From NCBI GenBank assembly GCA_016870115.1, contig VGCH01000006.1:62001-126000 (forward strand): a stretch of DNA of 64,000 bases. The letters are read 5' to 3'. Position numbers and translations under genes: made by a program. Below the pieces are notes generated by a model. That model saw nothing but the letters and a program-made list of their open reading frames with translations. It did not search any database and was not told where the DNA came from. How positions within the stretch are numbered: the first letter of the stretch is position 1; every line of letters starts with the position of its first letter. Positions 41,515-44,123 of this stretch are shown here, in pieces. Source of the stretch: Alphaproteobacteria bacterium (lineage in GTDB: Bacteria > Pseudomonadota > Alphaproteobacteria > Reyranellales > Reyranellaceae).

Positions 41515-42078
41515 TCAGGCGCCGCCTGGGTCGCGTACGCGCTTGTCCACCGCCAGCCGCTCGACCGGCTCGAGCAGACCCAGCAAGACCTTGCCGAAGC
41601 CCTGAACAGCGTCGGCGCCGGCCTCGCGATAGGCGCGCGCAAATCGCTTGCACTGGCGCTCGGTCAGAGCCCGCTCCAAGGTCTGCCCCTTGTCGGTCAG
41701 CCACAGGCGGCGCTCGCGACGGTCGCGCGGCCCGCTCTTCTGATCGACATAACCCTGGTCGATCAGGTCCCGCATGATGCGCGAGATCGACTGCTTGGTG
41801 ACTTTCAGGATCGACAACAGGTGTCCGACGGTCTCGCCGGGATGGCGCCCGATGAAATAGAGCGCGCGATGATGCGCGCGTCCGAGACCGAACTCCTTCA
41901 GCTGCTGGTCCGACTCGAAGGTGAAGTCCCGATACGCATAGAACATCAGCTCGATGCCCTGGCGCAGTTCGCGCTCGCGCAGGAACAGCGGATTGGCGGG
42001 CGATCTGGTTTCCACGGGCTCGATCTTGGGGGTGACGATGCTGACGCCGACTATAGAGGGGTCGCGTTGCGTTGACAC
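41515..42078 (-). CDS. MarR-family transcriptional regulator
   Basis: A 187-residue winged-helix regulator: ELMFYAYRDFTFESDQQLKE, AHHRALYFIGRHPGETVGHL, recognition region LKVTKQSISRIMRDLIDQGY and wing SGPRDRRERRLWLTDKG. The GTG at 42078 is the first in-frame start; residues before about 30 are poorly conserved, so the true start may be later. It heads the MarR-OmpR-EnvZ operon and is divergent from ilvE (70 bases apart), which it may control. Confidence 0.88.
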   Translation of the reverse strand: MSTQRDPSIVGVSIVTPKIEPVETRSPANPLFLRERELRQGIELMFYAYRDFTFESDQQLKEFGLGRAHHRALYFIGRHPGETVGHLLSILKVTKQSISRIMRDLIDQGYVDQKSGPRDRRERRLWLTDKGQTLERALTERQCKRFARAYREAGADAVQGFGKVLLGLLEPVERLAVDKRVRDPGGA

Positions 42079-42148: not shown

Positions 42149-43048
42149 ATGGCAACGGCGGCCCCCAGCTTCGACGATCGGGACGGCACGATCTGGTACG
42201 ACGGCAAACTAGTGCCGTGGCGTGGCGCCAATGTGCACGTGCTGACCCACGGGCTTCACTACGCTTCGGCCGTGTTTGAGGGCGAGCGAGTCTATGGGGG
42301 CCAGGTCTTCAAGCTCACCGATCACAGCCAGCGGCTGATCGACTCGGGCAAGCTGATGGGCTTCGAGATTCCCTGGACGCTGGCCCAGATCGACGCCGCC
42401 ACGATGGAGACGGTACGCGCCAACAACATCGTCGACGGCTATGTGCGGCCGGTCGCCTGGCGCGGCAGCGAGATGATGGGTGTGTCGGCGCAGCAGAACC
42501 GTATTCACCTTGCCATCGCAGTGTGGGTCTGGCCGAGCTACTACACGCTCGGGGCCAAGATGAAGGGAATCCGCCTCGCCCTGAGCGACTGGCGCCGACC
42601 CGCGCCGAACACCGCGCCGGTCCATGCCAAGGCGGCCGGTCTCTACATGATCTGCACCCTCTCCAAGCATAAGGCCGAGCAGGCCGGGTACGACGATGCC
42701 CTGATGCTCGACTATCGTGGCCAGATCGCCGAGGCGACCGGGGCCAACGTGTTCTTCGTGATGGACGGCGAGATTCACACGCCCAAGCCCGATTGTTTCC
42801 TCGACGGCATCACGCGCCGCGCGGTCATCGATCTCGCGCGCAAGCGTCAGATGAAGGTGGTCGAGCGCGGCATCATGCCGGAGGAGATGGCGCGCGCCAG
42901 CGAGTGCTTCATCACCGGCACCGCCGCCGAGGTGACGCCGGTGAGCGAGATCGGCCCCTATCGCTTCACGCCCGGCGAGGTCTGCCGCACGCTCATCGCG
43001 GACTTCACGCGCGCCGTGCAGCCCGCCAGCCGCGCTGCCGCCGACTGA
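42149..43048 (+). CDS. ilvE: branched-chain amino acid aminotransferase
   Basis: Transfers the amino group in leucine, isoleucine and valine synthesis or breakdown. The 299-residue PLP enzyme shows VHVLTHGLHYASAVFEGERV, GYVRPVAWRGSEMMG, the Schiff-base Lys161 (HAKAAGLYMIC), IAEATGANVFFVMDGEIHTP and LDGITRRAVIDLARK. The ATG at 42149 follows GTGGAGCG. Its 3' end carries a strong terminator. A close paralogue follows immediately (43212-44123). Confidence 0.96.
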   Translation: MATAAPSFDDRDGTIWYDGKLVPWRGANVHVLTHGLHYASAVFEGERVYGGQVFKLTDHSQRLIDSGKLMGFEIPWTLAQIDAATMETVRANNIVDGYVRPVAWRGSEMMGVSAQQNRIHLAIAVWVWPSYYTLGAKMKGIRLALSDWRRPAPNTAPVHAKAAGLYMICTLSKHKAEQAGYDDALMLDYRGQIAEATGANVFFVMDGEIHTPKPDCFLDGITRRAVIDLARKRQMKVVERGIMPEEMARASECFITGTAAEVTPVSEIGPYRFTPGEVCRTLIADFTRAVQPASRAAAD

Positions 43049-43074: not shown

Positions 43075-43107
43075 AACGGGGCCTCGCGGCCCCGTTTCTT
43101 TTTGTGC
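43075..43107 (+). terminator. terminator of ilvE
   Basis: AACGGGGCC, loop TCGC, GGCCCCGTT and TCTTTTTG; 27 bases after the stop. Confidence 0.88.
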
Positions 43108-43115
43108 CAGTTATA

Positions 43116-43145
43116 TTGACAAGGTCAGTATTAATGACCTAATAA
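43116..43145 (+). promoter_or_regulatory. promoter of the second ilvE copy with operator-like inverted repeat
   Basis: TTGACA (43116-43121) and TAATAA (43140-43145), 18 bases apart. The spacer is filled by AGGTCA-GTATTAA-TGACCT (43122-43140), a perfect 6+7+6 inverted repeat that would put a repressor between the two boxes. The local sequence is markedly AT-rich compared with the window. Confidence 0.65.
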
Positions 43146-43211
43146 TTCAGAAAGTTGCGTTGAGTGGAGGCATTTCAAGCGTTTTCAAACTTCTCTGGCG
43201 GGAGAATCGCA

Positions 43212-44123
43212 ATGTCTACAACGATGTCGGATCGTGACGGGTTCATTTGGTTGGACGGGCAGTTGGTCGCGTGGCGCGACGCCCGTACCCACGTTCTGAC
43301 CCACGCGCTTCACTACGGGTCTGCGGTCTTCGAGGGCGAGCGCATCTACGAGGGTCGGGTGTTCCGCCTCGCCGCGCACAGCGCCCGCCTGGTCAACTCG
43401 GCCCGGCTGCTGGACTACGAAATCCCGTGGACCCGCGAGCAAATCGATCAAGCGACCCGCGACGTCGTGCGCGCGAACGGACTCTCGACCGGTTACGTGC
43501 GGCCGATCGCCTGGCGCGGCTCAGAGGTGCTGGGCGTGTCCGCCATCGGCACCACGGTTCATCTCGCCATCGCCCCCTGGGTGCCGGACCGTCGACTGTC
43601 GGTCGACGCAAGCGACGGCGGGATCCGCGTGACGATGGCGCGCTATCGCCGCCCGCCGCCGGAGAACGCGCCGGGGGCTGCGAAGGCGGCCGGCCTCTAC
43701 ATCATCTGAGGCATCGAGAAAGATCGCGCGCTCAAGGCCGGGTTCGACGACGCGCTGATGCTGGACTGGAAGGGGCAGCTGTCGGAATCGACGGGCGCCC
43801 ATGTGTTTCTCGCGATCGATGGCGCGTTGGTCACGCCGCGGATCGAGAACATCCTTGATGGCATCACGCGTCGTGAAGTCATCGGCATGGCACACCGCCG
43901 CGGCATCGCAGTGGAGGAGCGTGCTGTGATGCCGGACGAACTCGCGCGCGCAAGCGAACTGTTCTTCTGCGGCAGCGCCGCCGAGATCGTGCCTGTAGCC
44001 TCGGTCGACTCCCTTAACTTCCAGGTCGGACCGATCACCCGCGCGATGCTCGACGACTTCCCCCGGCTGGTGCGCACTTCCGACTGCGAAGGCTTCGGCG
44101 AGTCGGGCCACTGGGCGGCGTGA
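43212..44123 (+). pseudogene. second branched-chain aminotransferase copy with an in-frame TGA
   Basis: A full-length ilvE paralogue of 303 codons in one frame, interrupted by TGA at 43707-43709 (codon 166). Before it lie VLTHALHYGSAVFEGERI, GYVRPIAWRGSEVLG and the PLP Lys158 (AAKAAGLYII); after it, in the same frame, FDDALMLDWKGQLSESTGAH, LDGITRREVIGMAHR and the normal C-terminus. In ilvE the equivalent codon is TGC (Cys169), so one base change explains the stop. All other signatures are intact, so the event is recent, a sequencing error, or recoding. GGGAG precedes the ATG, and it has its own promoter. Confidence 0.85.

Follow-up and report, generated by a model that had tools for sequence, protein, structure and literature searches.

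A recent nonsense mutation probably explains the in-frame TGA at a conserved cysteine codon of a tandem ilvE paralogue in a selenocysteine-decoding Reyranellaceae genome

When an in-frame TGA occupies a conserved cysteine codon in an organism that decodes selenocysteine (Sec), does it encode Sec, or does it simply stop translation? This question is raised by ilvE2, a class IV branched-chain aminotransferase gene found in the window, i.e. the whole stretch of 64,000 nucleotides that was analysed, which belongs to contig C6 of a draft genome of 3.56 Mb in 59 contigs. The closest relatives of this genome among the genomes compared are Reyranella, Enhydrobacter aerosaccus, and Vineibacter, on which basis it is assigned here to Reyranellaceae. 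From the evidence presented below, we consider it very probable that ilvE2 is a young pseudogene, a redundant paralogue that a nonsense mutation has recently inactivated.

The ilvE2 frame comprises 303 codons and has the TGA at codon 166 as its sole internal stop, eight residues past the PLP lysine K158; translation agrees on this point with the earlier note, and a whole-genome search of ilvE2 returned the same single TGA. The read-through sequence matches Pfam Aminotran_4 (PF01063) over residues 39-265 (E 2e-48), scores above the cut-offs of PRK06606 (286.8 vs 279) and ilvE_I (TIGR01122; 266.5 vs 245.55), and falls slightly short of that of PRK07544 (387.9 vs 396). It had been proposed that the frame runs on with its motifs, and the read-through product indeed has the score of a complete IlvE, with K158 and the main motifs retained. 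The premature stop leaves 165 of the 303 codons and cuts into the Aminotran_4 domain. Directly 5' of ilvE2 lies the intact paralogue ilvE1, above its family cut-off, whose Cys169 (TGC) occupies the matching position, as had been noticed beforehand. A MarR-type gene (41515-42078, minus strand) adjoins ilvE1. The features of the locus, together with four further stopped genes of the same genome, are listed in Table 1.

Table 1 Features of the ilvE locus (positions in the window) and other stopped genes of the same genome (G000; contig and position)
Feature	Position	Strand	Basis or comment
ilvE1, intact paralogue, 53% identical to ilvE2	42149..43048	+	PRK07544 519.6 bits, cut-off 396
ilvE1 TGC (Cys169), aligned with ilvE2 codon 166	42653-42655	+	Sequence alignment
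Terminator-like hairpin followed by a T run, 3' of ilvE1	43075..43096	+	Matches the consensus only; chance expectation 1.0
Likely ilvE2 promoter (TTGACA 43116-43121, TAATAA region 43140-43145)	43116..43146	+	Sequence, by-eye comparison with 12 relatives
Inverted repeat GGTCAGTATTAATGACC, likely operator	43123..43139	.	Expected matches in the window: 0.01
ilvE2, class IV branched-chain aminotransferase gene with one in-frame TGA	43212..44123	+	Translation, Pfam Aminotran_4, NCBIfam ilvE_I, orthologues
In-frame TGA, codon 166 of ilvE2	43707..43709	+	Cys in 58/58 aligned Reyranellaceae homologues
Stretch 3' of the TGA, expected SECIS site, encoding the family consensus GIEKDRALKAGFDDALMLDW	43710..43772	+	SECIS scans, relatives' sequences
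Universal stress protein (Usp), in-frame TAG/Tyr	G000:C6 about 146294-147127 (stop about 147 kb)		Pfam-confirmed family
MFS transporter, TGA/Trp	G000:C4 86300-87493		Pfam-confirmed family
LysR regulator, TAG/Ala	G000:C4 55644-56576		Pfam-confirmed family
GNAT acetyltransferase, TAG/Tyr	G000:C4 3559-4059		Pfam-confirmed family

With regard to the region upstream of ilvE2, the likely promoter overlaps the inverted repeat, and both are still conserved with the relatives, although a stricter promoter scan did not list a promoter at this place. The promoter, the operator candidate, and the ribosome-binding region are all intact. Throughout Reyranellaceae, ilvE2 is preceded by a promoter of sigma70-like type whose two hexamers flank a conserved inverted repeat (GGTCAGTAWTAYTGACC type) (loci L056, L057, L059, L064, L073, L080, L097, L101, and L107-L110).

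Orthologues of ilvE2, with 64-78% identity, occur in nearly all Reyranellaceae genomes searched and are mostly the sole close IlvE there. A tandem ilvE1-ilvE2 pair is found in a few other genomes (G001, G009, and G012; loci L101, L107, and L109). The codon at the position of the TGA could be read 81 times over 80 loci, as TGC (74), TGT (6), or GCC (1); in none of these readings, nor among the 58 aligned homologues, does a Reyranellaceae relative carry TGA. The frameshift near codon 200 of the ilvE2-type gene of G003 leaves the Cys codon intact and is a different event. In that genome, the sole close IlvE seems frameshifted (L055:5340-5430, G003:C9), by real loss or by assembly error, and no ilvE1 is listed there. 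Two matches with internal stops, G063 (TAA) and G083 (TGA), come from other families and are 43-47% identical to ilvE2, and a search of viral contigs gave no relatives. In the solved Burkholderia-type IlvE 4whx (PDB), the aligned residue is a serine.

The search for selA, selB, selC, and selD, which the earlier note had called for, found all four: the genome has a tRNA-Sec with anticodon tca as well as SelA, SelB, and SelD. It also has a Sec formate dehydrogenase (FDH; G000:C19), whose in-frame TGA stands in the classical ARI-U-HGPTVASL context, in the same cluster as the tRNA-Sec gene, selB, and selA. As SelA is present in 64 of the 71 Reyranellaceae genomes, the Sec trait is general in this family. 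Since the machinery is present and the trait general, a Sec reading of ilvE2 has to be judged by the SECIS element and by conservation. Two side observations concern these genes. An integrase-like ORF (L054:87-1567, G000:C19) directly adjoins the tRNA-Sec gene, near selB, selA, and the FDH genes, which suggests an element inserted at selC. In addition, selD lies within a much longer open frame of 792 aa, possibly a fusion protein (G000:C34:3705-4631, L136).

The published model of the bacterial SECIS comprises a loop of 3-9 nt on an upper stem of 4-16 bp, with a G within the first two loop positions, at 16-37 nt from the UGA and with an energy of at most -7.5 kcal/mol; according to the same review, some bacterial elements fall outside this model (PMC13188914). 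No hairpin compatible with the model follows the ilvE2 TGA, where the best stem reaches -2.7 kcal/mol. Under the same model, the FDH of this genome reaches -9.0 kcal/mol, and 26 of the 28 FDH loci of Reyranellaceae pass, the remaining two being at -6.3 kcal/mol. These 28 loci have their TGA at one common position and share one hairpin, whose loop starts 19 nt after the TGA with GUC or GUU in every case. Random codons (4232) have a median of -4.9 kcal/mol, and with a pass rate of 28.6% among them the test is a lenient one, which ilvE2 fails all the same. In a looser scan, in which outer stems may be long and broken, ilvE2 reached -10.2 kcal/mol; as the innermost helix of this stem has only two pairs and a bulge, it does not satisfy the upper-stem requirement. 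In unconstrained folding, the sequence 3' of the ilvE2 TGA is less stable than its shuffles (z about +1), and the z-score of the FDH region is likewise unremarkable, so only the constrained model discriminates.

Sec decoding of the ilvE2 TGA by SelB and tRNA-Sec, which would yield a Sec-containing aminotransferase, has several points in its favour: the host decodes Sec, the in-frame TGA is aligned with a residue that is Cys in all aligned Reyranellaceae relatives, and the mutation of a family-invariant Cys codon in such an organism is the pattern that a new selenoprotein would also show. Nevertheless, we judge this reading extremely improbable and reject it, on account of the missing SECIS, the absence of the TGA from the relatives read, and the comparable nonsense mutations elsewhere in the genome. 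The ilvE2 stem is weaker than that of the median random codon, and the codons after the TGA follow the family consensus with no reshaping toward a hairpin. One study accepted a new selenoprotein only with a SECIS and a TGA in at least two different sequences (PMC1088965); the TGA of ilvE2 occurs in this genome only, even though most Reyranellaceae have SelA. The serine of 4whx suggests that a thiol is unneeded at this position for the chemistry of the IlvE fold. Aminotransferases are unmentioned in the 2026 review of prokaryotic selenoproteins (PMC13188914), and the literature, when searched, yielded no relevant work on Sec aminotransferases. That ilvE2 would encode the first Sec-containing branched-chain aminotransferase, decoded via an atypical SECIS which the current bacterial model misses, is scarcely credible. 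The ranking made from the sequence beforehand, with Sec the least likely among recent pseudogenisation, sequencing error, and recoding by readthrough or Sec, therefore holds, for reasons other than absent machinery; the test rests on the published SECIS model, a positive control from the same genome, the 28 FDH loci, and random-codon nulls.

In order to place the stop in its genomic background, we set 884 kb of this genome against 1.2 Mb of Reyranella massiliensis (G023), in which 235 conserved genes were surveyable. Seven stops passed the filter, two of which (A_75 and B_277) resemble antisense or alternative-frame ORFs. The five kept are the TGA/Cys of ilvE2 and the stops in the Usp, MFS, LysR, and GNAT genes of Table 1, a count that is approximate, as hits were sorted by inspection and antisense or over-extended reference ORFs were dropped. 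The four other genes have otherwise intact frames and are of dispensable-looking types. When G023 was surveyed in turn, eight stops appeared, all of them, by eye, in antisense or alternative-frame ORFs, and none looks real. Because the other four stops lie off Cys positions, recoding is not required to account for isolated stops within intact frames in this genome. Of the single-base changes that could create a stop in ilvE2, about 3-4% fall on Cys codons, so the position of its stop is only mildly unlikely and makes no compelling argument by itself; if there are dozens of nonsense alleles genome-wide, one or two would be expected to fall on Cys codons by chance. Possible frameshifts relative to Reyranella genes were also seen at G000:C4 31094-32880 and 18429-19408, one of which resembles a gene with SRPBCC and adenylate-cyclase parts.

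If ilvE2 is a pseudogene, it is probably a young one. In a codon model of 32 sequences, the omega of the ilvE2 branch is about 0.8 times the background and is not raised overall. When the branch was fitted in two phases, functional and then neutral, the maximum-likelihood neutral time was 0, with a drop in lnL of 1.5 at 0.05 and of 3.7 at 0.1 substitutions per codon; as the whole branch amounts to about 4.5 substitutions per codon and synonymous sites are near saturation, these figures are rough. According to the fit, ilvE2 appears to have been under purifying selection almost to the present, and any neutral phase since then probably amounts to no more than about 0.06 substitutions per codon. 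Old decay is rejected, longer neutral times being disfavoured. At columns conserved at 98% or more, ilvE2 has six private changes, all of them among the 63 such columns after the stop and none among the 82 that precede it (P about 0.006, a post hoc comparison). Relaxation starting 3' of the stop would fit this asymmetry, but weakly, and comparable asymmetry arises by chance in other leaves of the model. Likewise, the N/C difference in omega is larger on the ilvE2 branch (p 0.007), but values like it occur in a number of other leaves, so that it does not count as proof. The earlier claim that a single base separates ilvE2 from a working enzyme is plausible at most, given the six private changes that conserved columns show 3' of the stop. 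The highest omega of the 32 leaves, 2.6 times the background, belongs to the ilvE2 of a genome with the tandem pair (L101:4001-4909), which is perhaps relaxed by redundancy.

A sequencing or assembly error, with a true Cys codon and a normal gene, would agree with the lack of relaxation, the intact regulatory sequences, and an allele known from one assembly only, itself a draft, and further isolated stops occur in the genome. However, to put all five stops, found among 82,162 aligned codons, down to error, some 190 wrong substitutions in 246 kb would be needed, given that roughly 2.6% of random substitutions create a stop (72/2727 in ilvE2). Error is implausible for all five, since this rate, near 8e-4 per base, is too high for a normal consensus, and the dispensable types of the other four genes also speak against it; we regard error at ilvE2 as unlikely, a minor possibility. 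Low-level readthrough of the TGA by a near-cognate tRNA, giving a little full-length active enzyme on which selection continues, could draw on the same lack of detectable relaxation and on the kept promoter and operator, but the TGA lacks conservation, nothing special was seen in its context, other genes are stopped by TAG, and a very young nonsense allele accounts for the same data, so that we find it very doubtful. Reassignment of TGA is rejected, as TGA terminates 147 of the 201 genes scored and is the main genuine stop of this genome.

The young nonsense pseudogene thus has on its side the intact ilvE1, the use of TGA as the main stop, the lack of both sharing in relatives and a SECIS-like hairpin, similar nonsense mutations in the genome, the absence of long neutral drift, and, post hoc, the position of all six private changes at conserved columns 3' of the stop. 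As expected of a pseudogene, the stop removes an essential part of the domain and relatives have intact homologues. Against it stand the single assembly, the lack of anything that, apart from the stop and the post hoc asymmetry, would positively indicate decay, the intact promoter, operator, and ribosome-binding region, and the location of the stop on a family-invariant Cys in a Sec-decoding organism. A very recent nonsense mutation would have turned the Cys166 codon into TGA. Ribosomes would terminate there and release a 165-residue fragment ending just past the PLP lysine, which, deprived of the C-terminal part of the Aminotran_4 domain, would probably not form an active enzyme. The loss would be tolerated because the intact tandem ilvE1 presumably supplies the activity.

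The locus offers a worked caution, as a gene whose invariant Cys codon has become an in-frame TGA mimics a selenoprotein when its genome decodes Sec, while the SECIS, phylogenetic sharing, and the nonsense background of the genome point to an ordinary stop. It would also capture, at a very young stage, how a redundant tandem paralogue is lost. Among known systems, ilvE2 read through resembles the IlvE family (TIGR01122, PRK06606, PRK07544; PF01063) in its score, its lysine, and its motifs, and differs from it in being broken after the PLP lysine and in the private changes N197H, F214I, A222E, V250L, L252F, and L279M. With the Sec FDH of the same genome it shares an in-frame TGA in a conserved gene of a Sec-decoding host; in contrast, the FDH TGA is common to 28 Reyranellaceae loci, each with a conserved SECIS hairpin, and ilvE2 exhibits neither. 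The closest likeness is to a nonsense pseudogene of a tandem paralogue, with one stop in an otherwise intact frame, an intact neighbouring paralogue, little decay yet, and other nonsense-stopped genes in the genome, from the usual form of which ilvE2 differs by having its stop on an invariant Cys codon in an organism that decodes Sec.
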